Assembly: GCA_025362495.1 (NCBI GenBank)
Contig: JANYGI010000042.1
Location: 62,001 to 126,000 of the forward strand
Direction: 5' to 3'
Source: Byssovorax sp.
Lineage (GTDB): Bacteria > Myxococcota_A > Polyangia > Polyangiales > Polyangiaceae
DNA: 64,000 nt
Shown here: positions 11,346 through 26,482 of the stretch, piece by piece
Layout: the number at the start of each line of letters is the position of its first letter
Numbering within the stretch: position 1 is the first letter of the stretch
Program-made: the position numbers and the translations under genes
The notes under the pieces: model-generated
Database searches by the model: none
The model's input: the letters and a program-made list of their open reading frames with translations, nothing else
Told to the model about the DNA's origin: nothing

Positions 11346-11375
11346 GGTGAATGATCGCGAGCGGCATCATTCACC
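11346..11375 (+). promoter_or_regulatory. Perfect 10-bp hairpin between gcvH and gcvPA
   Basis: GGTGAATGAT at 11346-11355 pairs perfectly with ATCATTCACC at 11366-11375 around a 10-base loop, 56 bases before the gcvPA start. The arms are less GC-rich than their surroundings. It may be an attenuator, an RNA-processing or mRNA-stability element, or an operator; the sequence alone does not decide. Confidence 0.5.
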
Positions 11376-11431
11376 AGATCAATGCGGGCTTGTCCGGGCG
11401 CGATCGGGCCCCCAGGAAGAACGAACCTCCC

Positions 11432-12796
11432 ATGCGCTACCTGCCCCACACCCCCGAAGAGATCACCTCGATGCTCGCCACGGCGGGGGTCGCGTCGCTC
11501 GACGCGCTCTACGCGTCGATCCCTCCGGAGGCGCGCCTCGGGCGGCCGCTCGCGCTCGAGCCCGCGCTCGACGAGCCGTCGCTCGTGCGTCACCTCGAGG
11601 ATCTCGCCCAGAAGAACCGCGCGGCGACCATGCTCTCGTTCCTGGGCGCGGGCGCGTACGACCACCACTTCCCGCCCGCGGCCGACCAGCTCCTGCTCCG
11701 CAGCGAGTTCTACACGGCGTACACGCCGTATCAGCCCGAGGTCGCGCAGGGCACGCTCCAGGTCATCTTCGAGTTCCAGACGATCGTGAGCGAGATCCTC
11801 GGGCTCCCCGTCGCCAACGCGTCGATGTACGACGGCGCGAGCGCGACGGCCGAGGCCGTGGTGATGGCCCGTCGCCTCAACGGGCGCGAGCACACGCTCG
11901 TCTCGGAAGGCGTGCACCCGCACTACCTCGAGACGGTCGACACCTACGTCGCCGGCATCGGCACGGGCACCGCGTCGATCCAGCGCGTCGCCGTCAGCAA
12001 GACGGGCGCAGAAGACGTCGACGCGCTCATCGCCGCCATCACCGACACCACGGCGTCGGTCGTCGTCGGCTACCCGAATTTCTTCGGCTGCGTCAGCGAT
12101 CTGCGCCGCCTCGCCGAGGCCGCGCACGCCAGGGGCGCGTTGCTGATCACCGTCACGATGGACCCGTACGCGCTCGCGCTGCTCGAGTCGCCCGGCGCGC
12201 TCGGCGCCGACATCGCCGTCGGCGAAGGGCAGCCGCTCGGCCTCCCGCCGCAGTACGGCGGCCCCAACGTTGGCCTCTTCGCGTGCCGCAACGACCGCAA
12301 GTACCTGCAGCAAGTCCCCGGTCGCCTCGTCGGCGAGACGGTCGACAAGCACGGCCGGCCCGGCTACGTGCTCACCCTCGCGACGCGCGAGCAGCACATC
12401 CGCCGCGAGCGCGCGACGAGCAACATCTGCACGAACAGCGGCCTCTGCGCGACGGCCGTGACGATCAAGATGTGCATGCTCGGCAAGCGCGGCTTCGTCG
12501 ACGCCGCGGGCCAGTGCCTCGCCAAGGCCGAGCACCTCAAGAGCGAAATCGCAAAATTGCCTGGCTATTCGCTGCCTTTTTCGGCGCCGACGTTCAACGA
12601 GGTCACCGTCGCCGTCCGCGGCGGCGACGCGCACGCGCTCACCGAAGCCCTTGTTTCCAAGGGGATCATCGCCGGATACGACCTCGGTCGATCGTCGGCG
12701 TCGCGCAAGGGCGAGCTGCTCGTCGCCGTGACCGAGCGCCACACCCGCGCCGACCTCGATCGCCTCGTCGCGGCCCTCGCCGCGTACGGCGTTTGA
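11432..12796 (+). CDS. gcvPA: Glycine dehydrogenase (decarboxylating) subunit 1
   Basis: 454 residues from the ATG at 11432 (MRYLPHTPEEI, the usual N-terminus of this subunit). A longer frame starting at 11351 would begin inside the hairpin and is rejected. This is the alpha half of the two-subunit PLP-dependent P protein, which decarboxylates glycine. Family sequence includes MLSFLGAGAYDHHFP, FYTAYTPYQPEVAQGTLQ, NASMYDGASATAEAV and the late TREQHIRRERATSNICTN. The PLP-lysine subunit (gcvPB) normally follows, but the next gene is unrelated, so gcvPB must lie elsewhere. Confidence 0.95.
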   Translation: MRYLPHTPEEITSMLATAGVASLDALYASIPPEARLGRPLALEPALDEPSLVRHLEDLAQKNRAATMLSFLGAGAYDHHFPPAADQLLLRSEFYTAYTPYQPEVAQGTLQVIFEFQTIVSEILGLPVANASMYDGASATAEAVVMARRLNGREHTLVSEGVHPHYLETVDTYVAGIGTGTASIQRVAVSKTGAEDVDALIAAITDTTASVVVGYPNFFGCVSDLRRLAEAAHARGALLITVTMDPYALALLESPGALGADIAVGEGQPLGLPPQYGGPNVGLFACRNDRKYLQQVPGRLVGETVDKHGRPGYVLTLATREQHIRRERATSNICTNSGLCATAVTIKMCMLGKRGFVDAAGQCLAKAEHLKSEIAKLPGYSLPFSAPTFNEVTVAVRGGDAHALTEALVSKGIIAGYDLGRSSASRKGELLVAVTERHTRADLDRLVAALAAYGV

Positions 12797-12895: not shown

Positions 12896-13261
12896 GTGAA
12901 ACGCTCTGAAATGCCGACCGTCCGGGTCAGGCCTGCACCGGTCGTCCTGATCGTGGGATGCACCCCGGCCTTCACCCGCCGCTGCAACGAGGCCGCCGTG
13001 CAAGGGCGCGCCATCGCCGTCGAGGCCGACTTGACGTCGTTCACGACGCTCGCGACGCAGACGCGCGCGCGCGCCGTGCTCATGCCCGCCGCGATGTACA
13101 CGACCAACGCGCCTCTGTTCGACGCCATGGTCGCCTCGGCGGGCACGCGCCTCGTGACGTTCCCCGGCGAGTCCATCGCGCAGGACAAGCTCGTCGACAT
13201 GATCCTCGCAGCCGTGGACCGCGTCGGCCCGGACACCGAGCCTGGCGCCTCGGCCCGATAA
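12896..13261 (+). CDS. Small conserved-looking protein, receiver-like fold possible
   Basis: 121 residues from a GTG (an ATG at 12911 is an alternative). I do not recognise the family. The alternating strand/helix pattern (VVLIVGCTPAF, then RARAVLMPAAMY, GTRLVTFPGE, KLVDMILAAVDRV) resembles a response-regulator receiver layout, but there is no acidic pocket at the first strand and no aspartate at the expected phosphorylation site, so it would be non-phosphorylatable if it is one. It lies between gcvPA and the metal efflux operon, same strand, with no sign of which it serves. Confidence 0.55.
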   Translation: MKRSEMPTVRVRPAPVVLIVGCTPAFTRRCNEAAVQGRAIAVEADLTSFTTLATQTRARAVLMPAAMYTTNAPLFDAMVASAGTRLVTFPGESIAQDKLVDMILAAVDRVGPDTEPGASAR

Positions 13262-13283
13262 ATAGCTTCATCGCTGCCCCGAC

Positions 13284-13308
13284 TACGGTTAAATATTATT
13301 TAACCGTA
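13284..13308. promoter_or_regulatory. 25-bp AT-rich perfect palindrome upstream of the efflux operon
   Basis: TACGGTTAAAT at 13284-13294 and its exact complement ATTTAACCGTA at 13298-13308 flank a 3-base centre. In DNA this GC-rich, an 11-bp perfect AT-rich dyad is striking. Its centre is about 83 bases upstream of the start expected from the -24/-12-like element at 13354-13369, a typical distance for an enhancer bound by an NtrC-family activator, and such an activator is encoded at the end of this operon. A TetR- or MarR-type operator remains possible. Confidence 0.55.
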
Positions 13309-13353
13309 CAGTAAATCCTTCAGCAATCTCGCGGTTCTTCGACCATCCAGGTA

Positions 13354-13369
13354 TGGCACGCAGCGTGCT
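13354..13369 (+). promoter_or_regulatory. Candidate sigma-54 (-24/-12) promoter of the efflux operon
   Basis: TGGCACG, four bases, then GTGCT matches the consensus TGGCACG-N4-TTGCW with one mismatch, and the GG to GC spacing is the canonical 12. The predicted start near 13380 leaves a leader of about 37 bases before the TTG start of the first gene. Caution: GCACG-CAG-CGTGC is itself a short palindrome, so it could be an operator rather than a promoter. Confidence 0.45.
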
Positions 13370-13416
13370 GTGACGCCGCGCGGGCCCTACCGGGGCCGTC
13401 CTGGAGGATCCCGAAC

Positions 13417-14793
13417 TTGCTCTCAGCCGTTGCCCACCCCCACTTCGGTAGCTTCATGCGGCGAGTCACACGCCTCGTCATGCTGCCTGCCACCCTGCTC
13501 TTGACGAGCTCGCCGGCGTGGTCCGAGGTGAACAGCAGCGCGAGCTCGGTTCCTTCAAAGGCAGCTCCGGTAGGCGCCCTCCTCCGGGATGACGGCGCGC
13601 TCCTCGGCTGGATCGGCCGCCGCAACGGCGAGATCCTCGCGGCCGACGCCCGCATCTCGCAGGCCGACGCCGACGTCGGCACGAGCCGCCTCCTGCTCCC
13701 GAACCCCACCGCGGACTTCGCCGTCGGCGGCATCACGCTCGGCCGCACCAACCCGCCCGGCCTCAACTTCGGCGACACCTCGAACTTCAACTTCGGCCTC
13801 AGCCAGACCGTCGAGCTCGGCAAGCGCGGACCGCGCATGGAAGCCGCGGATCTCCGGCTGAAAGAGGCGAAGAAGAGCTACGAAGTCACCCTCGCCGACA
13901 AGCTCGCCGACACCCGACTCGCCCTCGCCCGCGTCGTTTACCTCAAGGCCCGTCTCGCCACGCTCGAAGACGGCCTCGCCTCCGCGCAGAAGTCGGACGA
14001 GCTCCAGAAGGCGCGCCTCGATCACGGCGGCATCAGCGGCAACGACTTCGATCGCCTGCAGCTCGACACCATCAGCCTCGAGACCGACGTCGCGCGCAGC
14101 CGCTCCGAGTACGTCGGCGCGCTGGCCGCGTGCGAAGGCGCTCTCTACGCGCCTTGCGACGTCGCCGCGGAGGACGCCGCCTCGCTCGACGCCGCCGCCG
14201 CCTTGCCCCCTTCGCTGCCCGAGCCGGCGACCAGCATCGCCTCCCGTCCCGACATCGCCGTCGCGCAGCTCGAGGCCGCCGCCGCGCAGCAAGACGCCGT
14301 CCTCGCGCGCCGCCGCGGCATCCCCGACCCCACGGTGCGCCTCGGGTACACCCACGACAACGGGCAGATCAGCGGCGCCCAGCCCAACACGCTCTCGCTC
14401 AGCGTCAGCGTCCCACTGGCCCTCTTCGATCACGGCCAGCACGACGCCGCCAGGGCCAGCGCGCGCGCCGCCGAGCAGCGCCACCTCGTGACGGCGCTCT
14501 CCGCGGGCGCGCAGGCGAGCTATGGCGCGCTCGTCGATCATCGCACCTTCCTCGAAGCCTCGTTGAAGCGGCTCGACGCCGTCGCCGTCCCCAAGTCGGC
14601 CGGCGTCCTCGACACCACGCAAAAGGCCTTTAGCCAGGGCCAGGTGGGCATGACAGACCTGCTCCTCGCCCGCCGCACCCACCTCGCGTTGATACTCAAT
14701 CAGATCGACATGCGGTTCGATTACTTCACCGTCCGCAACGACCTCCGGCGCGTGCTCGGGCTCGATGCGACCTCGATCGGACAGAGCAGGTAA
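13417..14793 (+). CDS. Outer-membrane efflux protein, CzcC/TolC family
   Basis: 458 residues from a TTG at 13417, chosen because GGAGG at 13403-13407 sits 9 bases upstream; the ATG at 13456 has no visible ribosome site. The N-terminus carries a signal peptide (RRVTRLVMLPATLLLTSSPAWS). Two long OEP-type repeats follow, with coiled-coil helices and LLLPNPTADFAVGGIT, QTVELGKRGPR and FSQGQVGMTDLLLAR, hallmarks of the CzcC group. It forms the outer-membrane channel of the tripartite exporter with the next two products; the adaptor gene starts 4 bases after its stop. Confidence 0.88.
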   Translation: MLSAVAHPHFGSFMRRVTRLVMLPATLLLTSSPAWSEVNSSASSVPSKAAPVGALLRDDGALLGWIGRRNGEILAADARISQADADVGTSRLLLPNPTADFAVGGITLGRTNPPGLNFGDTSNFNFGLSQTVELGKRGPRMEAADLRLKEAKKSYEVTLADKLADTRLALARVVYLKARLATLEDGLASAQKSDELQKARLDHGGISGNDFDRLQLDTISLETDVARSRSEYVGALAACEGALYAPCDVAAEDAASLDAAAALPPSLPEPATSIASRPDIAVAQLEAAAAQQDAVLARRRGIPDPTVRLGYTHDNGQISGAQPNTLSLSVSVPLALFDHGQHDAARASARAAEQRHLVTALSAGAQASYGALVDHRTFLEASLKRLDAVAVPKSAGVLDTTQKAFSQGQVGMTDLLLARRTHLALILNQIDMRFDYFTVRNDLRRVLGLDATSIGQSR

Positions 14794-14797
14794 CACC

Positions 14798-15985
14798 ATG
14801 AATCAAAGCGCCACTCCCGACCCGACCTCACCGGGCTTCCCCCTGCGCTCGCGCAAGGTGCAAGGCGTCCTCGCCGCCGTCGTCGTCAGCGGGATCTCCA
14901 TCTGGGCCGCGTCGGGGTTCACGCGCGAGCCGCCGCCTCCCACCCCGGAGGCCCCCGGCATCCAGGTCGGCGACGACAACGTCACGCTCGCGGCCGACGC
15001 GCCGCAGTGGAAGGTGCTCCGCCTCGGCACCGTCGCCGCCGCGACCACGCACTGGAGCGATCCGGTGCCGGCGCGCGTGAAGATCGACGAGACCCGCGCC
15101 TCGAAGGTGGGCAGCCCGCTCGCCGGCCGCGTCACCCAGGTGTTCGTCGAGCTCGGTCAGCCCGTGAAGACGGGCGACGCGCTCTTCACCGTCGCCAGCC
15201 CCGACATCGCCGGCCTGCGCGGCGAGCGCGAGAAGGCCGCCGTCGATCTCGAGGTCGCCAAGGGCACGCTCGAGCGCGTGAAGGCCATGGTCTCGGCGCG
15301 CGCTGTCGCCGCGAAGGAAGAGGTCGAGGCCGATCAGACCTACCGCCAGGCGAGCCTCTCGCTCCGCCTCGCGCAGAGCAAGCTCGCCTCGCTCAAGGTC
15401 TCCTCGCGCGCCGAGAACGAGTTCACCGTCGTCTCGCCGCGCGACGGCGTCCTCGTCGAGAAGAACATCCTCCCGGCGCAGCAGGTCAGCATCGAGAGCG
15501 GCCTCGTCGAGGTCGCCGATCTCTCGCAGGTGTGGGTCGTGGCCGAGCTGTTCGAGGCCGACGCCGTGGGCATCCTCGTCGGCACGCCGACCAAGATCTC
15601 CAGCCCGTCGATGCCGGATCTCGCCCTCGAGGCCAAGGTCGACATGGTCTCTGCCGTCGTCGATCCCAACCGCCACACCGTCCCGGTGCGCGTGCGCCTC
15701 GACAACGAGAAGCACCTGCTCAAGCCCAACGTCTTCGCGCAGATGCGCTTCGCGGTCGAGCCCCCCACGGGCAGCGGCGAGGTCGCGGCCTCGGCCCTCG
15801 TCTCCGACGGCGCCAAGCAGTACGTCTACGTGCAGACGGATCACGGCCGCTTCACCCGCCGCGAGGTCGTCGCCGGCTCGGTGCGCGAGAACAAGGTCCC
15901 CATTCTCTCCGGCCTCAAGCCCGGTGAGGTCGTCGTCGAGGAGGGTGCCATTCTCCTCGACAACCAGATCGCCCTCTCTCACTAG
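14798..15985 (+). CDS. RND efflux periplasmic adaptor, CzcB-like
   Basis: 395 residues. A membrane anchor at about 22-40 is followed by a barrel-sandwich (lipoyl-like) domain (SPLAGRVTQVFVELGQPVKTGDALF), a helical hairpin (DIAGLRGEREKAAVDLEVAKG), the second lipoyl half (VVSPRDGVLVEKNILPAQQV) and beta-barrel/membrane-proximal domains. The phrases VGSPLAGRV and VWVVAELFEADA are typical of heavy-metal adaptors. I see no His-rich metal-binding extension, so the metal cannot be named. The pump gene follows after a 246-base gap holding a repeat element. Confidence 0.88.
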   Translation: MNQSATPDPTSPGFPLRSRKVQGVLAAVVVSGISIWAASGFTREPPPPTPEAPGIQVGDDNVTLAADAPQWKVLRLGTVAAATTHWSDPVPARVKIDETRASKVGSPLAGRVTQVFVELGQPVKTGDALFTVASPDIAGLRGEREKAAVDLEVAKGTLERVKAMVSARAVAAKEEVEADQTYRQASLSLRLAQSKLASLKVSSRAENEFTVVSPRDGVLVEKNILPAQQVSIESGLVEVADLSQVWVVAELFEADAVGILVGTPTKISSPSMPDLALEAKVDMVSAVVDPNRHTVPVRVRLDNEKHLLKPNVFAQMRFAVEPPTGSGEVAASALVSDGAKQYVYVQTDHGRFTRREVVAGSVRENKVPILSGLKPGEVVVEEGAILLDNQIALSH

Positions 15986-16010
15986 AGCACCGGATCGGAA
16001 ATCCGGATTT

Positions 16011-16129
16011 CAACGCAAAGACGCGGAGACGCAACGACGCAAAAAAACCCGGAGATAGAACAGAGTCAGATAACAAATCTCCTCTGCTCTCGTACTTTTG
16101 CGCTTCCGCGCCTCCGCGCCTTTGCGTTG
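16011..16129. repeat. Long imperfect inverted repeat between the adaptor and pump genes
   Basis: The left arm (16011-16044, beginning CAACGCAAAGACGCGGAG) and the right arm (16096-16129, ending CTTTGCGTTG) match at 27 of 34 positions as inverted copies; the central 51 bases have further pairing (GGAGAT with ATCTCC). Arms built on CGCAAAG and CGCGGAG resemble short dispersed repeats seen in many bacterial intergenic regions. It probably forms a hairpin within the operon mRNA and could lower or separate expression of the pump. A palindrome (AAATCCGGATTT) lies just before it at 15999-16010. Confidence 0.6.
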
Positions 16130-16231
16130 AACTCTCCTTCTTTTCGCGTGGTTACAGCGCACCGCTGAGCCTGCCGCACAGCATCAATGACACCACCGGC
16201 GCGAGCCTCCTCGCGCCGCAAGGGCACTCTC

Positions 16232-19200
16232 ATGCTCGATGGAATCCTGAAGTTCTCTCTTGCCAACCGACTCGCGGCCTTCCTCCTCGCCGCGGTGATC
16301 GGTTGCTGGGGCTACTACGCTTACTCCGGCCTCACGGTCGAGGCGTTCCCGGATCCCACGGACACCCAGGTTCAGGTCATCACCCTCTTTCCCGGTCAGC
16401 CCACCGAGGAGGTCGAGCGCCGCGTCTCCGTCCCGCTCGAGCGCGCGCTCAACGGCGCTCCCGGCCTGATGCGACTCCGCAGCATCTCCCTCTTCGGCCT
16501 CTCGTTCGTCACCCTCACCTTCGACGACGCGACCGACGCCTACCGCGCGCGCCAGCAGGTCTCCGAGCGCCTCCTCGAGGCCGAGCTGCCCGAGGGCGTC
16601 AAGCCGAGCCTCGGGCCGATGGCCACGCCGATCGGCGAGGTCTACCGCTACACGCTCGACAGCAAGAGCTCTGATCCGATGACGCTGCGCACCCTCCAGG
16701 ACTGGACGGTTCGCCCCCAGCTCCTCCAGGTCCCCGGCGTCGCCGACGTCGTCTCGTATGGCGGCCTGATCAAGGAGATCCACGTCCAGCCCAACCCCAC
16801 CAAGATGGCGGCGCTCGGCGTCGGGCTCACCGACATCTTCACCGCGCTCACCAAGGCCTCGGCCAACGCCACCGGCGGCTACGTCGAGCGCGGCTCCGAG
16901 ATGTTCGTGATCCGCAGCCTCGGCATCTTCCACGACATGCCGGACCTCGAGCTGGTCCGCGTCGCCTCGCACGACGGCATCCCCGTCACCGTGAAGGACA
17001 TCGCCACGGTCACCGAGGGCTACACGCCGCGCCAGGGCATCGCCACGCGCGACGACAACGAGGACGTCGTCGAGGGCATCGTCCTCATGCGCCGCGGCGA
17101 GAACCCCACTGTCGTGCTCGACGGCCTCGCCAAGCGCATCACCGAGCTCAACGCGCGCATCCTCCCCGCGGGCGTCAAGATCACTGCATTTTACGACCGA
17201 TCCGAGCTCGTCAAGATCACGCTGAAGACCGTCTTTCACAACCTGATCGAGGGCGCCGTCCTCGTCACGCTCGTGCTCTTCGTCTTCATGCTCTCGCTCC
17301 GGGCGTCGCTGATCGTCGCCATCGTCATCCCGCTCTCGCTCGCGGCGTCGTTCATCTACCTCTCGGTCCGCGGGATGAGCGCCAACCTGCTCTCCATGGG
17401 CGCGGTCGACTTCGGGATCATCGTCGACGGCGCGGTCATCCTCGTCGAGCACCTCTTCCACAAGCTCTCGCCCGGCCACGGCGAGCCGGTGCCGACCGAG
17501 CCGATCCCGCTCGCCACGCTGGCCGATCGCATCTACCGCGCGGCCACCGAGGTCGCGCGCCCCACGCTCTTCTCGCTCCTGATCATCATCGCGGCGTACC
17601 TGCCGATCTTCTCGCTCCAGCGGGTCGAGGGCCGGATCTTCTCGCCGCTCGCCAACACCGTCGTCAGCGCCCTCGTCGGCGCCCTGCTGGTGAGCTTCAC
17701 GCTCGTGCCGGTGCTGTGCCTCTACGCCCTGCGCAAGCCGAAGATCCAGCGCGACTCGCCGGTCCTCGTCTGGGCGCGCAAGGCCTTCGAGCCCTCGATC
17801 GGCTTTGCCATGCGGAACCCGGTGCTGATCATGGTGCTGGCGTTCGGCGGCCTCTTCTCCGCGGTGACGCTGCTCCCGCGGCTCGGCTCGGAGTTCCTCC
17901 CCGAGCTCAACGAGGGCGCGCTCTACGTCACCTTCGCGCTCCCCGGGAACACCTCGGTGAGCGAGGGCCGCAAGCTCACGCCCAAGATCAAGGAGCTGCT
18001 GAAGCGCACGCCCGAGGTCATCGGCCTCCAGTCGCAGCTCGGTCGCCCCGAGGACGGCACCGACGCCAAGCTCACCAACAACCTCGAGATCTTCGTCAAG
18101 CTCAAGCCGCTCGACGCGTGGCGCCCGACCATCCACACGATGGACGATCTCGTCACCGAGATGACCACCAACCTGAACGAGATCCCCGGCGTCGAGTTCA
18201 ACGTGTCGCAGCCGATCCGCGACAACGTCGCCGAGAACATCTCGGGCCAGCAGGGCCAGATCGCGCTCAAGATCTACGGCGACGATCTGCTCAAGCTCCA
18301 GGACGCGGCCGAGAAGGCCAAGGGCGTGATCACCGCCGTGCCCGGCGCGGCCGACGTCGGCCTCGTGAAATCGGGCGACGCGCCCCAGCTCAGCGTCAAG
18401 CTCGACCGCCGCGCGCTCGCTCACTACGACCTCGATCTGGGCGAGGTGCAGGACTACATCGAGACCGCGATGGGCGGCCACGTCGCCAGCGAGCTCTGGG
18501 ACGGCGACAAGCGCTTCGACGTCACCGTTCGTTACCCACCGTCAACGAGAGAAGACGTCGGCGCGATCCGCGAGGTGATGATCCCGCTGAAGGACGGCTC
18601 GCTCATCCCGCTCGCGGCCGTGGCCGAGGTCAACATGGGCATCGGCCGCGCGGCGATCACGCGCGAGGGCGGCCGCCGCTACGTCGGGGTGCGGATGAAC
18701 GTCCGCAACCGCGACCTCGGCTCGTTCGTGAAAGAGGCGCAGCAGAAGGTCGGCGCCGCGATCACCCTCGAGCCCGGCTACGAGATGACGTGGGGCGGCG
18801 AGTTCGAGAACCAGGAGCGCGCGATGAAGCGCCTCACGCTGGTGATCCCGCTGGCGCTCTTGATCACGTTCCTGCTTCTCTTCTCGGCCTTCGGGTCGGT
18901 CTTCGACGCCACGCTCATCCTCGTCAACGTGCCCTTCGCGCTCATCGGCGGCGTGTTCGGCCTCGCCGCGGTGAAGATGACGCTCTCGGTCTCGGCCGCC
19001 GTCGGCTTCATCGCCTTGCTCGGGCAAGCGGTGCTCAACGGCGTGCTGGTCGTGGCCGCGATCCGCGGGCGCATCGACACCGGCGAGCCGCTCATGGACG
19101 CCGTCGTCGGGGGCACGCGCGATCGCCTCCGCGCCGTGCTGATGACCGCCCTGCTCGCCTCGCTCGGCCTGCTCCCCGCGGCCATGTCCCACGCCATCGG

Positions 19201-19363
19201 CAGCGAGACGCAGCGGCCGATCGCCGTGGTCGTCGTCGGCGGCACCATCAGCGCGGCGCTGCTCACGCTCATCGTCCTGCCGGTGACGTACTACTGGGCC
19301 TGCGTCCTCCGCGAGCGCCTCGCTCGTCGCCGCGACGACACGCCCGCGGTCGTGGCGCCGTGA
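16232..19363 (+). CDS. Heavy-metal RND efflux pump, CzcA-like
   Basis: 1043 residues from the ATG at 16232, with AAGGG 7 bases upstream. Inner-membrane proton-driven exporter of the HME-RND family. Transmembrane helix 4 carries VDFGIIVDGAVILVEH, with the two Asp and the Glu of the heavy-metal signature; periplasmic domains include GQPTEEVERRVSVPLERALNG and LGSEFLPELNEGALYVTF. The sequence closely resembles the second copy at 47222-50347. The substrate could be Zn, Co, Cd, Ni or Cu/Ag. A histidine kinase gene begins 31 bases later, so signalling genes are probably co-transcribed. Confidence 0.93.
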   Translation: MLDGILKFSLANRLAAFLLAAVIGCWGYYAYSGLTVEAFPDPTDTQVQVITLFPGQPTEEVERRVSVPLERALNGAPGLMRLRSISLFGLSFVTLTFDDATDAYRARQQVSERLLEAELPEGVKPSLGPMATPIGEVYRYTLDSKSSDPMTLRTLQDWTVRPQLLQVPGVADVVSYGGLIKEIHVQPNPTKMAALGVGLTDIFTALTKASANATGGYVERGSEMFVIRSLGIFHDMPDLELVRVASHDGIPVTVKDIATVTEGYTPRQGIATRDDNEDVVEGIVLMRRGENPTVVLDGLAKRITELNARILPAGVKITAFYDRSELVKITLKTVFHNLIEGAVLVTLVLFVFMLSLRASLIVAIVIPLSLAASFIYLSVRGMSANLLSMGAVDFGIIVDGAVILVEHLFHKLSPGHGEPVPTEPIPLATLADRIYRAATEVARPTLFSLLIIIAAYLPIFSLQRVEGRIFSPLANTVVSALVGALLVSFTLVPVLCLYALRKPKIQRDSPVLVWARKAFEPSIGFAMRNPVLIMVLAFGGLFSAVTLLPRLGSEFLPELNEGALYVTFALPGNTSVSEGRKLTPKIKELLKRTPEVIGLQSQLGRPEDGTDAKLTNNLEIFVKLKPLDAWRPTIHTMDDLVTEMTTNLNEIPGVEFNVSQPIRDNVAENISGQQGQIALKIYGDDLLKLQDAAEKAKGVITAVPGAADVGLVKSGDAPQLSVKLDRRALAHYDLDLGEVQDYIETAMGGHVASELWDGDKRFDVTVRYPPSTREDVGAIREVMIPLKDGSLIPLAAVAEVNMGIGRAAITREGGRRYVGVRMNVRNRDLGSFVKEAQQKVGAAITLEPGYEMTWGGEFENQERAMKRLTLVIPLALLITFLLLFSAFGSVFDATLILVNVPFALIGGVFGLAAVKMTLSVSAAVGFIALLGQAVLNGVLVVAAIRGRIDTGEPLMDAVVGGTRDRLRAVLMTALLASLGLLPAAMSHAIGSETQRPIAVVVVGGTISAALLTLIVLPVTYYWACVLRERLARRRDDTPAVVAP

Positions 19364-19394: not shown

Positions 19395-21134
19395 GTGGCC
19401 CCCTCTCCTCCCTCGACGCGCAAGCCGGCGGGCAAGGTCGACAGCCTGGCCGCGGCCCACGCACGCTTCGCGCGCGCGGCTCTCCTGATCTACCTGGGCG
19501 CCATCGTGGTCGGCATCTCGCTCCTCGTCGTCGCCCTCGTCACCGACAAAGCCCACGAAGAAGATCAGACGCGCGAGCGGCTGCTGCTCGAGACCGACGT
19601 GCGCGCGCACTCGCTCGGGCAGCACCTCGGCCTCCTCGTCGAAGAGCTGCGACGCCTCGGGCTGCGCTCCGAGGTCGACCTCCTCGATCACAATCTCGCC
19701 CCGGAAAAGAGCCTGCTCGCGCTCTCTCACGAGAAGAGCACCTTCTTCAACCTCGGCGTCGCGATCCTCAACCCGAAGGGCACCGTCCTCTGGACGGAGC
19801 CGCGAGATTTCCTCCTCGACGGCACCTCGTTCGCAGCCGAAAAATGGTTCGCCGGCGTGCGCTACAGCCAGTCGCTGCGCATCGTCCCGGTGCAGCCCGA
19901 TCGCGCTGACGCGGTGCTCTACGTCGTCTCGCCAATCGTGCGCGGCGGCGAGTTCGCGGGCGCCCTGCTCGGCGGCGTCGATCTCGCGCGGGGCGAGCCG
20001 CTGAGCGCCGCGCCGCAGGTCGTGGGCGGCGACGTGCTCACCGTCCTCGCGACGCAGGAGGGCGCCGTCGTCTACCCGCCGCGGCCGCCGGCCTTCGCCG
20101 CCGAGGGCACGTGGAAGGCGCTCTTCACCAAGGGATCGGTCGAGCCTTTCACCGAGATCGCGGTGCTCGGCGGCCACAACACCGTCGTCGCCGCCTCGCC
20201 CGTCTCGGGCACCGACTTGATCCTCCTCACGGTCGCGCTGCGCAAGCCGCTCTTCGCGCCCGCGCGCAACCGTCTCGAGACCCGGATCACGCTCGGCCTC
20301 CTGCTCGCCGCGACGCCGCTGGTGCTCCTCGTCGCGCTGCTCCGACGCTCGCTCGATCTGTTCCGCCGGAGCGAGCAGGACGCCGTCCGCGAAGAGCGCC
20401 TGGCCCTCCTCGGCGAGGCCGCGAACTCCATCGCCCACGAGGTGAAGAACGCGCTCAACGGGCTGAGCATGGGCCTCGATCTCGTCGTCCGCCGCGACGA
20501 GCGCCCCGAGGCCGCGGCGCGCCGCGAGCGCGTGCTGAACGAGCTCCGCAACGAGATCCACCGCCTCTCCGATTTCACCACGCAGCTGATGACGTTCTCG
20601 AAGGGGATCGAGCTGCGGCGGGCGCGCGTCGATCTCGTCGACTTCATCCCCAAGGTGACGAGCCTGCACCGCGACGCCGCGGTCGAGCTCGGCGCCGACA
20701 TCGATCTCGACATGCCGGCCGACCCCGCGTGGGTCAACGCCGATCCGACGCTGCTCCACGCGGTGATTGGCAATCTCACCGGCAACGCGCTCGACGCGGC
20801 CACGGGGCCCGGCGGCTCGAAGGAGCCGCGCGTCGAGGTCATGCTCGCCACCCGCGGCGGGGTCGCCGAGATCCGCGTCCGCGACAACGGGCCCGGCGTC
20901 TCGCGCACCATGCTCCCTCGCCTCTTCGAGCCCTTCCAGACCGAGAAGGCCAACGGCGTCGGCATCGGGCTCGCTCTCGCGCGCAAGATCGCCCTGGCCC
21001 ACCGCGGCGATCTCGTGCTCGAGGCCCCGCCTCCGTCCCCCACCAAGACCCCGATCCCCGGCGCGCCCTCGGCGCCTCCCCCCGCGAAACGGGGCGCCAC
21101 GTTCCTCCTCACTTTGCCGCTGGAGACCGCATGA
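19395..21134 (+). CDS. Membrane sensor histidine kinase of the efflux operon
   Basis: 579 residues from a GTG. One membrane helix at about 29-50, a periplasmic sensor of about 245 residues that looks Cache-like (NLGVAILNPKGTVLW, YVVSPIVRGGEFAGALLGGV), a second helix at about 297-316, then the kinase core. The phospho-acceptor is His348 in SIAHEVKNALNGL. The ATP-binding domain shows NLTGNALDAA (N box), DNGPGV and GVGIGLALARKIA. The stop overlaps the start of the response regulator (ATGA), so the two form a cognate pair. Envelope metal stress is a reasonable but unproven signal. Confidence 0.88.
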   Translation: MAPSPPSTRKPAGKVDSLAAAHARFARAALLIYLGAIVVGISLLVVALVTDKAHEEDQTRERLLLETDVRAHSLGQHLGLLVEELRRLGLRSEVDLLDHNLAPEKSLLALSHEKSTFFNLGVAILNPKGTVLWTEPRDFLLDGTSFAAEKWFAGVRYSQSLRIVPVQPDRADAVLYVVSPIVRGGEFAGALLGGVDLARGEPLSAAPQVVGGDVLTVLATQEGAVVYPPRPPAFAAEGTWKALFTKGSVEPFTEIAVLGGHNTVVAASPVSGTDLILLTVALRKPLFAPARNRLETRITLGLLLAATPLVLLVALLRRSLDLFRRSEQDAVREERLALLGEAANSIAHEVKNALNGLSMGLDLVVRRDERPEAAARRERVLNELRNEIHRLSDFTTQLMTFSKGIELRRARVDLVDFIPKVTSLHRDAAVELGADIDLDMPADPAWVNADPTLLHAVIGNLTGNALDAATGPGGSKEPRVEVMLATRGGVAEIRVRDNGPGVSRTMLPRLFEPFQTEKANGVGIGLALARKIALAHRGDLVLEAPPPSPTKTPIPGAPSAPPPAKRGATFLLTLPLETA

Positions 21135-22534
21135 GACCGACAGTGCTCGTCGTGGATGATGAACGCCTCTTCCGTGTCCTCGCCGAGGAAGCGCTGAGCT
21201 CGGAGGGCTTCGAGGTGCGGACCGCGAGCACCCTCCAGCGCGCGCGGATCGAGATCGACAAGGCCACACCCGACGTGATGATCCTCGATCGCCGGCTGCC
21301 CGACGGCGATGGCATCGACATGCTGCGCGAGCTCAACTCGCAGGGGCAGAGCGCGTCGCTGGTGATCGTGGTGACGGCGTACGGCGACGTCGAGAACGCG
21401 GTCGAGGCGCTGCGCGCCGGCGCGGTCGACTACCTGACCAAGCCGCTCCAGGTCACCGATCTCATCGTCAAGCTCCGCAAGGTGCTCGAGGCCCGCGGCC
21501 TGCGCGATCGCCTCGCCCTCGCCGCGAGCAGCAGCGACGCGCAGCGGCCCCTCGTCGCGCCGAAGAGCCCCGCGTCGCTCAACGTGTTCACCCAGCTCGA
21601 GCGCGTGAGCCAGAGCCCGCTGACGCCGGTGTTCCTCGTCGGCCCCTCGGGCGCGGGGAAGCAGCACGCGGCCGAGCTGCTCCACCGGATGACGTTCCCG
21701 GCTTTCACCGGCGACGGCGCCCCGTTCGTCGAGGTCAACTGCGCGGCTCTTCCGGCGCACCTCGTGGAGAGCGAGCTGTTCGGGCACGAGCGCGGCGCCT
21801 TCACCGACGCCAAGACCATGCGCCGCGGCCTGATCGAGATGGCCGATGGGGGGACTCTGTTCCTCGACGAGATCACCGAGCTGCCCGAGCCTTCGCAGGC
21901 CAAGCTGCTGAAGTTCCTCGACTCGATGCGCTTCCGGCGCCTGGGCGGGCAGCGCGAGATCGAGGTCTCCTTGCGGATCGTGGCGGCCACCAACCGGGAC
22001 CTCAAGACGCTCGACAACAGCCGCTTCCGCGAGGATCTGTATCACCGACTGGCTGTTTTCCTGGTGAACATTCCCTCTCTGGCGGACCGCAAAGAGGATA
22101 TCTCCGAGCTGGCCAAGGGGTTCGTGAGTTACTTTGCAGGGCGGGTGAAGAAGCGGATCACGGGGATCAACGCCGAGGCCCTGGAGGCGCTCTGCGGGTA
22201 CAATTTCCCGGGGAACGTGCGGGAGCTGCGGAACATCATCGAGCGGGCCATGATCCTGACCTCGGGGCCGGAGATCGAGGCGCGGGACATCATTTTACCC
22301 GAGCTCGGGGAGCTGCGCGGGAAGGGGAAGAGCAAGGGGGAGGATTCTTTCTTTTCCATGGCGCTGGGCGCTGACGGGGTCCCTCCTCCGGCGGAGGTCG
22401 TGGAGCGGGCTTACGTGGCGCGAGTGCTGGAGCATTTCCATGGGAAGCGCGTGGTGGCTGCGCAGGCGCTCGGGATTTCTTATCCGACGTTCTTGAAGCG
22501 GCTGCGGGAGCTCGGGTTTGCTAATGATTCTTGA
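21131..22534 (+). CDS. NtrC-family sigma-54-dependent response regulator
   Basis: 467 residues. Receiver domain at 1-120 with Asp9/Asp10, phospho-acceptor Asp53, Thr82 and Lys104. AAA+ domain with Walker A GPSGAGKQ (171-178), the sigma-54 contact loop as GAFTDA (222-227; canonical GAFTGA, with the contacting Phe and Thr kept) and Walker B GGTLFLDEI. A C-terminal Fis-type helix-turn-helix ends the protein (AAQALGISYPTFLKRLRELG). Phosphorylation by the overlapping kinase should let it remodel sigma-54 RNA polymerase. The candidate palindrome and -24/-12 element upstream of the same operon fit autoregulation. Codon choice becomes more CTG/CGG-rich near the 3' end. Confidence 0.9.
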   Translation: MRPTVLVVDDERLFRVLAEEALSSEGFEVRTASTLQRARIEIDKATPDVMILDRRLPDGDGIDMLRELNSQGQSASLVIVVTAYGDVENAVEALRAGAVDYLTKPLQVTDLIVKLRKVLEARGLRDRLALAASSSDAQRPLVAPKSPASLNVFTQLERVSQSPLTPVFLVGPSGAGKQHAAELLHRMTFPAFTGDGAPFVEVNCAALPAHLVESELFGHERGAFTDAKTMRRGLIEMADGGTLFLDEITELPEPSQAKLLKFLDSMRFRRLGGQREIEVSLRIVAATNRDLKTLDNSRFREDLYHRLAVFLVNIPSLADRKEDISELAKGFVSYFAGRVKKRITGINAEALEALCGYNFPGNVRELRNIIERAMILTSGPEIEARDIILPELGELRGKGKSKGEDSFFSMALGADGVPPPAEVVERAYVARVLEHFHGKRVVAAQALGISYPTFLKRLRELGFANDS

Positions 22535-23267: not shown

Positions 23268-25241
23268 CTAGCGCGACGAGAATGGCGTCGCGTCGGCGGG
23301 GCCCTGGAGCTTCGCCGTGGCCAGGAGATAGGCTCGGCTGATGTCGGCCTCGTCGAGGAGGCCAATGAGGCGGCCCGCGGCGTCGATGACCGGGACCTCG
23401 CGGAGCGTGTTCGATTGCATCGACTCCACCGCGGTGCGGAGATCGTCGTCGGGGGCGATCGACACCGGGGGATGGGCGATGTCGGCGGCGACCGTCATCC
23501 CCTCCAGCTCGCGCTCCGAGGCGATGACGCGGAGCGACTCCGAGGTGATGATCCCGAGCATTTTCCCCCCGGGATCGAGCACCGGGAAGACGTCTTGCCA
23601 GCTGGTGTCGGCGACCCGGTGCAGCATCTCCGAGGCCCGCGTCGCCGGCGCGAAGGTGCAAAACGTCCGGCCCTCGACCAGCGCGTCGCGCACCAGCAGC
23701 GTCTTCAGGATGTCGGCCATCGGGACCCGGTGCGCCGGGGACTCGCGCTTCGTCGGCACTTGCGCCGAGTAGAGCGAACGATGGCGGAGCGCGACGAAGG
23801 CGATGCCCTCGGCGAGCATCATCGGCACGAGGAGATCGTAGCTGCCGGCCAGCTCGCACACCATCACGAGAGAGCTTATCGGCGCGTGGGCGATCCCCCC
23901 GTAGAACGTGCCCATGCCGACGAGGGCGAACGCGCCGGGATCGATGCGAGGATCGTGGAGGATGAGCTGCGCGGCGCGGCCAAAGGCCCCTCCGAAGAGG
24001 CCGCCGAGCACCAGCGAAGGAGCGAAGTCGCCGGCGCTGCCGCCGCTGCCGAGCGTGAGAGACGCGGCGACCAGCTTGGCCCCGCAGAGCAGAAGCAAGA
24101 GCTCGACTCCCGTCCACCCCGCAGGGAGCCACGACGCGCCGGTGATGCTCACCTGCACCGCGCCGTAGCCGCTCCCGAGGAGGCCAATCCCCTGCCCCGG
24201 CGTGTTCAGCTTGCGGTCGACGAACCAGAGCACCGCCGTGCAGAAGACGCCGAGCGCGAGGCCGCCGACGCCCGGCCGAACCCACGCCGGACCGGGGAGC
24301 CGCAACGAGAGCTTCTTCACCCCGGCCAGCGTGTTGAGGAACACGATGGCGAGCAGCGAGAGCAGGAGGGAGAACAGCGCATAGAGCGGCAGATGCGCCG
24401 GAACGAAGGGGAAATGCGCCGCGTGGGCGAAGAGCGTCGACTCGCCGAAGACCGAGATGAAGATTGAATACGACACCACGCTGGCGAGGAGCGCCGGGAT
24501 CAGAGCGTCGGACTCGAAGTCGTCGCGATAGAGCACCTCGGTCGCGAGGAGGGCGGCGCCGAGCGGCGTGCGGAACACGGCCGACATGCCCGCCGCGACG
24601 CCGGTGAGCATCAGTATCCGGGCCTCCCGGCGGCTGACGTTGAGGCCGCGCGCCACGAGGGATCCGAGGGCGCCGCCGATCTGCATCGTCGGCCCTTCGC
24701 GGCCGCCCGCGCCGCCGGTGCCGAGCGTGAGGATCGACGCCAGCGCCTTCACCCAGGCGACGCGCTTGCGCATCACCCCGCCCTGGTGATGAAACGCGGT
24801 GATCATCGCGTTGCCGCCGCCGCCCGCGGCCTCAGGCGCGATCTTGGCCGTGAGGATCCCGCCGAGGAGCGCGCCAATCGCCGGGATGATCGGGATGAGC
24901 CACAGGCGCACCGTGGGGCTCTCGACGACGTGACTGAACACCTTCTCGCCGTCGGCGCGGAGCGGCTTGTAGCCGGCGAGCCCGCCGAGGACGAGCTCTT
25001 CCAGGAGCTCGAGGGCGCCGAAGAACAGCACCGCCATCACCCCGGCGACGGCGCCGATGATCGCGGCGTGAAGGAGCGTTCGACCGATGAGGCGGAGATC
25101 GAGCGGTGAAGTGTCGGCGAGCAGCGCGTAAAAGGGCCGGCGCGGGCCCGGTGCGGGGCCGCGCTCGGGAGAGCTTTGCTCTGGCATGGCGAACTGGCGG
25201 ATCCAGGCTCGTCGCGGGAGCGGTGTGCTCCGCGGCCGCAT
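23268..25241 (-). CDS. ClC-family chloride channel/transporter with tandem CBS domains
   Basis: About 657 residues from the ATG at 25241, which has GGAG 7 bases upstream; an ATG at 25187 without a ribosome site is the alternative. The membrane part carries the ClC signatures GTGGAGGREGPTMQIGG (selectivity loop with the gating Glu) and LGSGGSAGDFAPSLVLGG, and about ten hydrophobic helices. The C-terminal cytoplasmic part has two CBS modules (ATRASEMLHRV to GKMLGIITSE, and DDDLRTAVESMQ to GRLIGLLDEADI) that usually bind adenine nucleotides. Whether it is a channel or a Cl-/H+ exchanger cannot be told by eye. It diverges from the next gene by 75 bases. Confidence 0.92.
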   Translation of the reverse strand: MRPRSTPLPRRAWIRQFAMPEQSSPERGPAPGPRRPFYALLADTSPLDLRLIGRTLLHAAIIGAVAGVMAVLFFGALELLEELVLGGLAGYKPLRADGEKVFSHVVESPTVRLWLIPIIPAIGALLGGILTAKIAPEAAGGGGNAMITAFHHQGGVMRKRVAWVKALASILTLGTGGAGGREGPTMQIGGALGSLVARGLNVSRREARILMLTGVAAGMSAVFRTPLGAALLATEVLYRDDFESDALIPALLASVVSYSIFISVFGESTLFAHAAHFPFVPAHLPLYALFSLLLSLLAIVFLNTLAGVKKLSLRLPGPAWVRPGVGGLALGVFCTAVLWFVDRKLNTPGQGIGLLGSGYGAVQVSITGASWLPAGWTGVELLLLLCGAKLVAASLTLGSGGSAGDFAPSLVLGGLFGGAFGRAAQLILHDPRIDPGAFALVGMGTFYGGIAHAPISSLVMVCELAGSYDLLVPMMLAEGIAFVALRHRSLYSAQVPTKRESPAHRVPMADILKTLLVRDALVEGRTFCTFAPATRASEMLHRVADTSWQDVFPVLDPGGKMLGIITSESLRVIASERELEGMTVAADIAHPPVSIAPDDDLRTAVESMQSNTLREVPVIDAAGRLIGLLDEADISRAYLLATAKLQGPADATPFSSR

Positions 25242-25316
25242 CCTTTTACTCCACTCGCCGCCGTCGGGGCACGAAAGCGCACGAGAACGACGCCCGCCGG
25301 TAGTAGAACGGAGAAC

Positions 25317-26078
25317 GTGAGCGAAATCGCCTTCTTTCACGGCCTCCTCTGGGCCTTCGTCGGGCTCGGCGCGGTGGTCTTCGTCGCGCTCTTCTTCATC
25401 GACGCTCCGTACGGTCGCCATCGCCGGGCCGGCTGGGGCCCGACGATCGATGACACGCTCGGCTGGGCGCTGATGGAAGGCACCTCGGCTACCGTCGTGG
25501 CCGCCTGCTTCGCCCTGGGCGATCGGCGCACGAGCCCTGTCGCCATCACCTTTTTCCTGCTCTGGGAGGCGCACTATGTCCATCGCGCCTTCATCTTCCC
25601 CTTTCGCCGCTCCGGGGCGCCGCGGCGGATGCCGGTCGTCGTCGCGGGCATGGCCGTCGTCTTCAACCTGATGAATGGCTATCTCAACGGCCGCTGGCTC
25701 AACACCCTGTCTCCGCCGTACCCCGACGGGTGGCTCACGGAGGCTCGCTTCCTCGCCGGAGCGGGGCTGTTCGTCGCGGGGTTCCTCGTCAACCTTCAAT
25801 CGGACGAGACCCTGCGCCGCCTCCGCGCCCCGGGCGAGACTGGCTACAAGATCCCGGTGGGCGGGCTCTATCGGTGGGTGTCGAGTCCCAATTACCTCGG
25901 CGAGATCGTCGAGTGGTGTGGGTTCGCCCTCGCGACGTGGTCGCTGCCCGGGCTCGCCTTCGCCGTCTGGACGATCGCCAATCTCGCTCCCCGCGCCCGC
26001 GCGCACCACCGCTGGTATCGCCAGAAGTTCCCCGACTACCCGGCGGAGCGGCGCGCGTTGATACCCTATCTGCTCTGA
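25317..26078 (+). CDS. Steroid 5-alpha-reductase-like membrane protein
   Basis: 253 residues from a GTG at 25317 (GGAG three bases upstream). Several hydrophobic helices; the C-terminal third carries the hallmark of the 3-oxo-5-alpha-steroid 4-dehydrogenase family: GLYRWVSSPNYLGEIVEWCG, then ARAHHRWYRQKFPDYPAERR and the final ALIPYLL. Length and layout match SRD5A-type proteins, which use NADPH to reduce an enone double bond. The bacterial substrate could be a sterol or another lipid; nothing nearby identifies it. Confidence 0.85.
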   Translation: MSEIAFFHGLLWAFVGLGAVVFVALFFIDAPYGRHRRAGWGPTIDDTLGWALMEGTSATVVAACFALGDRRTSPVAITFFLLWEAHYVHRAFIFPFRRSGAPRRMPVVVAGMAVVFNLMNGYLNGRWLNTLSPPYPDGWLTEARFLAGAGLFVAGFLVNLQSDETLRRLRAPGETGYKIPVGGLYRWVSSPNYLGEIVEWCGFALATWSLPGLAFAVWTIANLAPRARAHHRWYRQKFPDYPAERRALIPYLL

Positions 26079-26482
26079 CCCGCCCCGGGCGACCGGCGGC
26101 ACCCCCTTCGTCGCAAATTCGGCGAAAGTCAAGGCCCCGGGGGCGTCGCGCCGGGTCGTGCGCGGCTGCACGACTCCGATCGTGCGTCAGTGCACGACGT
26201 CAGTCGTGCACCGTGGCACGAGCCGTGCGCCATTGCATCTCTCGACGAGCTGGTTCATGGTGCGCGCCACGCCGAATGACCGGAACAACCGGTCAACGGG
26301 GGACCCAGGCCGCAGCACCGGAGCACCGGACTGCGGCTTCCCTCTTCGAAAAAGGGTCGCCACGCCGTTCTGCACGGCGCGGCGAAGGGGCGAACCGACG
26401 CGAGGCTGAAACCCCCGGTCGGCGGGCACTCCATGCCCGAGCCCGTCAGCTAACCCCGTAGGCGCTTGGAGAAGTCGAAGTC
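26079..26482. other. 404-base intergenic region rich in short palindromes
   Basis: No convincing gene. It contains TGCACGAC/GTCGTGCA (26191-26210, 4-base centre), GCACGA/TCGTGC (26168-26185), TGACCGG/CCGGTCA (26278-26296) and several looser copies of GCACGA. One copy, TGGCACG-N4-GTGC at 26214-26228, also looks like a -24/-12 element. The region leads into the KimA-like transporter gene, so regulatory function is likely, but which element matters is unclear. Confidence 0.4.

Follow-up and report, generated by a model that had tools for sequence, protein, structure and literature searches.

Paired dyads and a sigma-54 element before a candidate self-activating metal efflux operon of Byssovorax sp., with shortened activators in a related genus

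The efflux operon and its proposed control region

The window analysed in this study is the whole stretch of 64,000 nt from Byssovorax sp. (contig JANYGI010000042.1, positions 62,001-126,000, forward strand). It carries an operon of the order OMF-MFP-RND-kinase-NtrC, i.e. outer-membrane efflux protein, periplasmic adaptor, RND permease, sensor kinase and NtrC-family response regulator, and this order, as given in the original prediction, was confirmed by open reading frames and domain models (Table 1). The kinase and regulator genes overlap (ATGA), and a 200-bp gap with an inverted repeat precedes the RND gene. The stretch 16000-16140 has 76 matches in the genome (both strands, self included), so the repeat is a dispersed one; no further promoter was recognised in the gap, though it could hold one. 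Upstream of the operon lie a gene with a glycine cleavage P-protein domain (11351-12796, plus strand) and a 121-aa ORF (12896-13261, plus strand), which is matched, at 34% identity, before the operon of Minicystis (L033:9221-9535). After the operon, on the opposite strand, a gene with a voltage-gated chloride channel domain and a CBS domain is found (23268-26171).

Table 1. Features of the proposed control region and operon in the window, and the last operon genes of three related genomes
Feature	Position	Strand	Remarks
Upstream enhancer-like site CGATAAATAGCTTCA	13256-13270	+	7/10 to TGAAA-N5-TTTCA; overlaps stop codon of upstream ORF
Reported dyad TACGGTTAAAT-ATT-ATTTAACCGTA	13284-13308	.	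core 13289-13303, TTAAA-N5-TTTAA, is the downstream enhancer-like site
Sigma-54 -24/-12 element TGGCACGCAGCGTGCT	13354-13369	+	11/12 positions of TGGCACG-N4-TTGCW; GG and GC 10 bases apart
Predicted transcription start	13379-13382	+	predicted from -12 element and general sigma-54 geometry
Ribosome-binding site GGAGG	13403-13407	+	9 bases from TTG 13417
Outer-membrane efflux protein (CzcC-like), TTG start	13417-14793	+	PF02321, E 1.2e-26
Periplasmic adaptor (CzcB-like)	14765-15985	+	PF16576; TIGR01730 over cut-off; TIGR00999 (CzcB/NccB) below cut-off
Dispersed inverted-repeat element	16006-16134	.	imperfect, 39-nt arms; within operon, between adaptor and permease genes
RND permease, CusA/CzcA family	16232-19363 (ORF open from 16187)	+	TIGR00914, 987 bits against cut-off 701
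Sensor histidine kinase	19395-21134	+	above cut-off for PF02518, below it for PF00512 and PF02743 (dCache)
NtrC-family response regulator	21131-22534	+	PF00072 receiver, PF00158 AAA+, PF02954 Fis-type HTH, all above cut-off
Sigma-54 contact loop GAFTDA (variant of GAFTGA)	21794-21811	+
Fis-type DNA-binding domain (HTH_8)	22394-22510	+
Last operon gene, G084	L108:11569-12567		332 codons; own AAGGAGG ribosome site
Last operon gene, G086	L036:15650-15937		bare DNA-binding domain
Last operon gene, G087	L037:15841-16131		bare DNA-binding domain

Among solved structures, ZneA (4k0e, 770 bits) is closest to the permease, ahead of CusA (560 bits). In the alignment with 3k07, V, N and E, as counted by eye, stand opposite the three methionines of CusA, which we take to be M573, M623 and M672, and the CusA methionine triad is thus absent. 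The lead of ZneA and the residues at the methionine places make a divalent metal likelier than copper or silver, and the pump is probably of CzcA/ZneA type.

Walker A, Walker B DE and RFREDLYHRL are all present in the window regulator, and GAFTDA is common to all 12 full-length activator rows aligned. The roles of the GAFTDA loop, the Walker motifs and the arginine fingers are presumably those assigned to them in general. GAFTDA is also named, in passages of PMC4641369, among the GAFTGA variants that would keep activity. As the loop is shared by every full-length row and stands in that list of variants, and the catalytic motifs are intact, the activator looks competent, judged by its residues. 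Membership of the ZraSR system was rejected for this pair, the regulator reaching 270 bits where the cut-off for ZraR is 760, and the kinase 99 where that for ZraS is 479.

The -24/-12 element predicted before the operon was confirmed, and it is the sole exact match to TGGCACG-N5-TGCT in the 64-kb window, where 0.04 would be expected. When two mismatches were allowed, 20 matches were found in the window against 23 expected, i.e. no excess; the weight of this element therefore lies in its quality and place. The genome has a sigma-54 gene (one PF00309 match, 65.9 bits). At sigma-54 promoters transcription begins some 12 bases beyond the -12 element, which would put the start near 13380, about 84 bases after the dyad centre at 13296; the spacing of about 83 bases in the original prediction agrees with this. 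The leader ends at a GGAGG/TTG start as had been proposed, and in Minicystis rosea (L033) GGAGG is likewise present, with an in-frame TTG 8 bases on.

The exact 11-bp arms of the dyad were also confirmed. The window has 7 places where perfect inverted repeats with a spacer no longer than 10 have arms of 10 or more, and at 4 of these, the dyad among them, the arms reach 11 or more (12 rows). Repeats whose arms are 11 or longer and whose spacer is 3 or shorter arose in 5 of 20 first-order simulated windows, the real window having two such places, so as a bare palindrome the dyad is only mildly unusual in 64 kb. Its core matches TGAAA-N5-TTTCA at 8/10 consensus positions, and the chance of an 8/10 match anywhere in 125 starts of the local composition is 0.017. 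A single enhancer dyad had been claimed. The dyad is indeed there, but a second, weaker site 33 bp upstream had been missed, and the two are the only positions scoring at least 6 between 13180 and 13345. We also asked whether the 25-bp palindrome is conserved in full and rejected this, as its sequence occurs once in the 10.8-Mb genome with up to 3 mismatches allowed and the relative promoters that were read share the core only. The search of orthologous loci that had been suggested thus recovered the AAA-N5-TTT core, but not the exact 11-bp palindrome.

Promoter elements and paired dyads in related genomes

The first gene, encoding the outer-membrane protein, was searched in 60 genomes of the family and gave a match in 48, mostly distant; in its own genus the count was 1/1 (the window's genome), and in GTDB contigs six loci were found, including Minicystis rosea (Polyangiaceae). 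A match to the activator was present in 10 of 108 family genomes at E <=1e-100, the window's genome included, and in 14 of 183 genomes of the order (family included) at 1e-105. The permease was matched in 11/12 genomes at 1e-200 and the small DNA-binding domain in 14/108 family genomes at 1e-6. Genes were then placed by tblastn in larger stretches around the relative loci.

The complete layout OMF-MFP-RND-kinase-NtrC is shared by the window and G064 (L055); G085, in which two contigs (L139 and L049) break inside the kinase, most likely has it too. G027 (L054) has MFP-RND-kinase-NtrC, and in G020 (L056) kinase-NtrC comes first and is followed by MFP-RND-OMF. The parts are separated in Minicystis rosea, with OMF-kinase-NtrC at L033 and MFP-RND about 5 Mb away (L137), and in G015, with OMF-MFP-RND at a contig end (L034) and kinase-NtrC on another contig (L050). 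G029 (L057) has the pump without a close activator orthologue, the best match being 42% identical, and in G110 (L035), also with a pump, the best activator match is 41% identical. In Minicystis rosea the activator (L033:13403-14775) shifts its reading frame within the linker that joins AAA+ to HTH, and the frame of the HTH is open starting at a GTG overlapping the stop codon; either a true split of the gene or an error of sequencing may lie behind this.

GG-N10-GC elements were looked for at 19 relative places upstream of the first match to a pump or operon gene. An element with at least 10/12 consensus positions was found at 14 of these places (L033, L035, L036, L037, L038, L054, L055, L056, L057, L108, L137, L138, L139 and L140), the background for such elements in these loci being about 0.03 per 600 bases. 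L034 and L058 have an element of 9/12 only, that of L058 lying 585 bases away, and L059, L060 and L109 have none of at least 9/12 upstream of the pump. Most of the 14 places have one or two short TGAAA-N5-TTTCA dyads upstream. In Minicystis rosea each piece of the operon has its own sigma-54 element, preceded by one dyad at the OMF-kinase-NtrC piece and by two at the MFP-RND piece. A stretch total of 553,772 bases contains 49 sigma-54-like sites; 8 of them have an upstream dyad of at least 8/10, and all 8 are at these operons (one locus counted twice). The distances of the dyads from the -24 element are 98/65 in the window, a spacing found in no relative, the commonest being 91/68-69 and 111/79-80. 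When a strict combined pattern was used to look for a regulon across 11 genomes, it gave one match in the window's genome, which is the promoter itself. It also gave one match each in G084 and G086, neither at a pump promoter, and its reversed control gave one in G087; the strict pattern is therefore uninformative for the relatives.

A matrix was built from 19 sites of 10 relative promoters, the window and L054, L109, L116, L117 and L118 being unused. This matrix ranked positions 13256 and 13289 of the window, which are 33 bp apart, third and fourth of 63,981, and of the 20 window positions reaching 7 bits no other two lie 18-36 bp from each other; pairs 31-33 bp apart also occur in L034, L035, L137 and L139. 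On leaving one out, 18 of the 19 relative sites ranked 1-5 in their own locus (8.3-21.4 kb) and one ranked 10, ranks which are partly circular because the matrix sites were chosen by resemblance and position. Clean tests of the matrix are confined to the window, L054, L109 and L116-L118, of which L117 and L118 belong to one genus.

Pairs of two sites of at least 6.5 bits, 18-36 bp apart, were scanned in 30 loci (570,122 bases, three duplicate stretches omitted), which yielded 20 rows in 16 clusters from 15 of the loci. Twelve clusters, counting the window's, precede pump or operon genes, three lie beside distant activator orthologues and one lies elsewhere (L036:2774). The three are paired dyads of the CGAAA-N5-TTTCG type at L116:16609-16657, L117:2891-2914 and L118:12510-12533, with no pump match in the stretch, and these loci belong to two other families of the order. 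In L109 paired dyads are present and the sigma-54 element was not found. No dyad pair was detected in the 30-locus scan in L033 (which has a single strong site), L038, L049, L057, L058, L059, L060, L111, L138 and L140, nor in L119, the fourth distant activator orthologue. The same was observed in L050, L051, L052 and L053, so that none of these four complete kinase-activator loci apart from a pump has paired dyads. By its base pattern the dyad of the window is a member of the dyad family of the relatives, and it is the pairing and the blind ranking which carry this argument.

Proposed regulation of the operon

Comparison with the relatives, in which the elements and the dyad family recur, supports the original prediction of sigma-54 control through an enhancer to which the NtrC-type activator of the operon itself would bind, and the region 13256-13369 is probably the control region of a self-activating, sigma-54-dependent operon for efflux of divalent metals. 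From the sequence comparisons we infer that the regulator is phosphorylated and binds, that the genes are transcribed together from the predicted start, and that metal is the signal. In the proposed circuit excess metal would be sensed by the operon's kinase, which would phosphorylate the NtrC-type regulator, the product of the last operon gene. The phosphorylated regulator would bind at 13256-13270 and 13289-13303, centred about 117 and about 84 bases before the predicted start, and would loop to the sigma-54 polymerase at the -24/-12 element. Pump, kinase and activator would then be driven together, leading to positive feedback.

The operon may instead depend on sigma-54 while the dyad serves another enhancer-binding protein or a separate two-component system, which we consider unlikely, though it is the most probable of the alternatives. 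NtrC-family proteins are abundant, with 24-104 matches per genome in the seven related genomes searched with the activator, and G086 and G087 encode a divergent regulator, OmpR-type by its C-terminus as judged by eye, with a kinase upstream of the pump. Further, strong dyads are present at L035, in a genome without a close activator orthologue, and this locus is the clearest result against a strict link between dyad and activator; since this contig breaks off within the permease gene, the activator of G110 may be absent from the assembly only. Against a different regulator, L035 is the exception among such genomes, the distant pumps L057-L060 having no paired dyads, and three of the four loci with a distant activator orthologue and no pump match do have them (L116, L117 and L118, not L119).

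It is very improbable that the dyad is the operator of an unrelated repressor or an element of a sigma-70 promoter and that the -24/-12 match arose by chance. The AT-rich and perfectly palindromic dyad would suit an operator, and palindromes of this kind were met in the simulated windows as described above, but no sigma-70-like site was found in 13262-13417, the -24/-12 element recurs at the same place in the relatives, and the relatives share core and spacing rather than the full palindrome. Least probable of all is an RNA hairpin terminating the upstream transcript (gcvP-like gene and small ORF), since the dyad, which can form a stem of 11 pairs (-10.8 kcal/mol, z -3.0, with 2 of 200 shuffles equally good), is followed by no T run, is absent from the terminator-like sites and corresponds in the relatives mostly to short imperfect dyads.

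Shortened activators and comparison with known systems

In three of the four genomes of one related genus, the fourth being G085, the pump operon has the sigma-54 element and the dyads but lacks kinase and activator at its end. The last operon gene of G084 encodes a protein which lacks the receiver and from which exactly eight residues spanning the GAFTDA loop are deleted; R replaces the Walker B aspartate and the arginine-finger stretch is altered, and the HTH is kept. In G086 and G087 the last gene encodes 95-96 aa and starts 16-20 bp after the stop codon of the permease gene, and its HTH stretch SYPTFLKRLREL is identical to that of the window regulator. Between these two small genes 15, 7 and 41 changes were counted at first, second and third positions over 94 codons, with dN 0.15 and dS 0.74 (NG86). 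The bias of positions and the low dN relative to dS suggest that the small gene is under purifying selection and is not decaying. According to their record titles, two of the three short-form genomes are metagenome bins. Upstream of the pump in G086 and G087 (L110:7112-9351 and L141:16017-16724), and pointing away from it, lies the regulator judged OmpR-type by eye, together with its kinase, and this is a possible second input.

G084, G086 and G087 each keep a complete kinase-activator pair elsewhere in the genome (L052, L051 and L053), with 62-64% identity to the window activator. No sigma-54 element of at least 9/12 was found within 450 bases upstream of the kinase match of these distant pairs, which have at most one strong upstream dyad (L051). 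Among the neighbours of two of the loci, three genes each, no metal-transport domain was detected, one of the six genes being without any match. In a tree of 59 columns of the DNA-binding domain the short forms group weakly, with one long-branched full-length row inside (89/79), and hence the tree does not establish one origin for them.

A DNA-binding domain without a working AAA+ domain, made from a promoter it can bind, should oppose the activator. From these sequences we tentatively propose, at slightly less than an even chance, that in the related genus the activator carried by the operon has become its own antagonist. The last gene would compete with the distant activator for the pump enhancer, the feedback would have passed stepwise from positive to negative, and the route by which NtrC is proposed to have given rise to a Fis-like protein would have been taken a second time, independently. 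The short forms may also have a helper or architectural role. If the antagonist reading is true, these operons offer a natural series in which the feedback of one operon flips sign via the shortening of one gene, and a present-day view of a stand-alone Fis-like protein arising from an activator. For the window itself, a defined enhancer pair and promoter are proposed for one NtrC-type regulator in Polyangiaceae-like genomes rich in that family, and a single footprint would anchor a regulon among the dozens of NtrC-family proteins per genome.

The CzcCBA and ZneCAB exporters have an outer-membrane protein, an adaptor and an RND permease of the CusA/CzcA family, as in the window. Classical czc regulation involves the OmpR-type CzcRS and other factors, whereas sigma-54 and NtrC-type control is proposed for the window. 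The ZraP-ZraSR system of enterobacteria is a metal response in which a kinase and a sigma-54 activator regulate their own genes and the target is a periplasmic zinc-binding protein. That target is not a pump, whereas the kinase and regulator of the window sit with an RND pump and score below the ZraS and ZraR cut-offs. CorSR modulates the curA operon of Myxococcus xanthus (PMC3707914) and, in passages of that paper, this is likewise a myxobacterial metal-resistance operon with its own kinase and NtrC-type regulator and with putative sigma-54 promoters. The same passages describe nine copper genes (multicopper oxidase, P-type ATPase), with kinase and regulator third and fourth and four putative sigma-54 promoters, whereas the window has an RND tripartite pump, the regulator last and one recognised promoter; they mention no enhancer site, and paired enhancer sites are proposed here. 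Among the open-licence PubMed Central papers listed, judged by titles and abstract openings, none describes an RND metal operon under sigma-54 control that carries its own activator, nor a short copy of an NtrC activator borne by an operon.

The short forms also have partial counterparts. NtrC proteins without GAFTGA, namely those of Caulobacter and Rhodobacter capsulatus as well as VspR, are described in passages of PMC10274813 as activating or repressing at sigma-70 promoters. In Caulobacter NtrC, according to the same passages, the deletion at the sigma-54 loop is also of eight residues and DNA binding is kept, as in the G084 protein. The Caulobacter protein retains its receiver with the phosphorylation site D56, whereas the G084 protein has no receiver, is the last gene of a pump operon and has a complete copy elsewhere in the genome. 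Fis is held to derive from the DNA-binding domain of NtrC (Morett and Bork 1998, as cited in passages of PMC7166090) and is, like the small proteins of G086 and G087, a stand-alone NtrC-type DNA-binding domain. It is a global nucleoid protein, whereas the G086 and G087 proteins are operon-borne and carry the HTH sequence of the local activator. The circuit of the window joins a known type, that of CorSR/curA and ZraSR, and the unexpected part is the short activators of the related genus.
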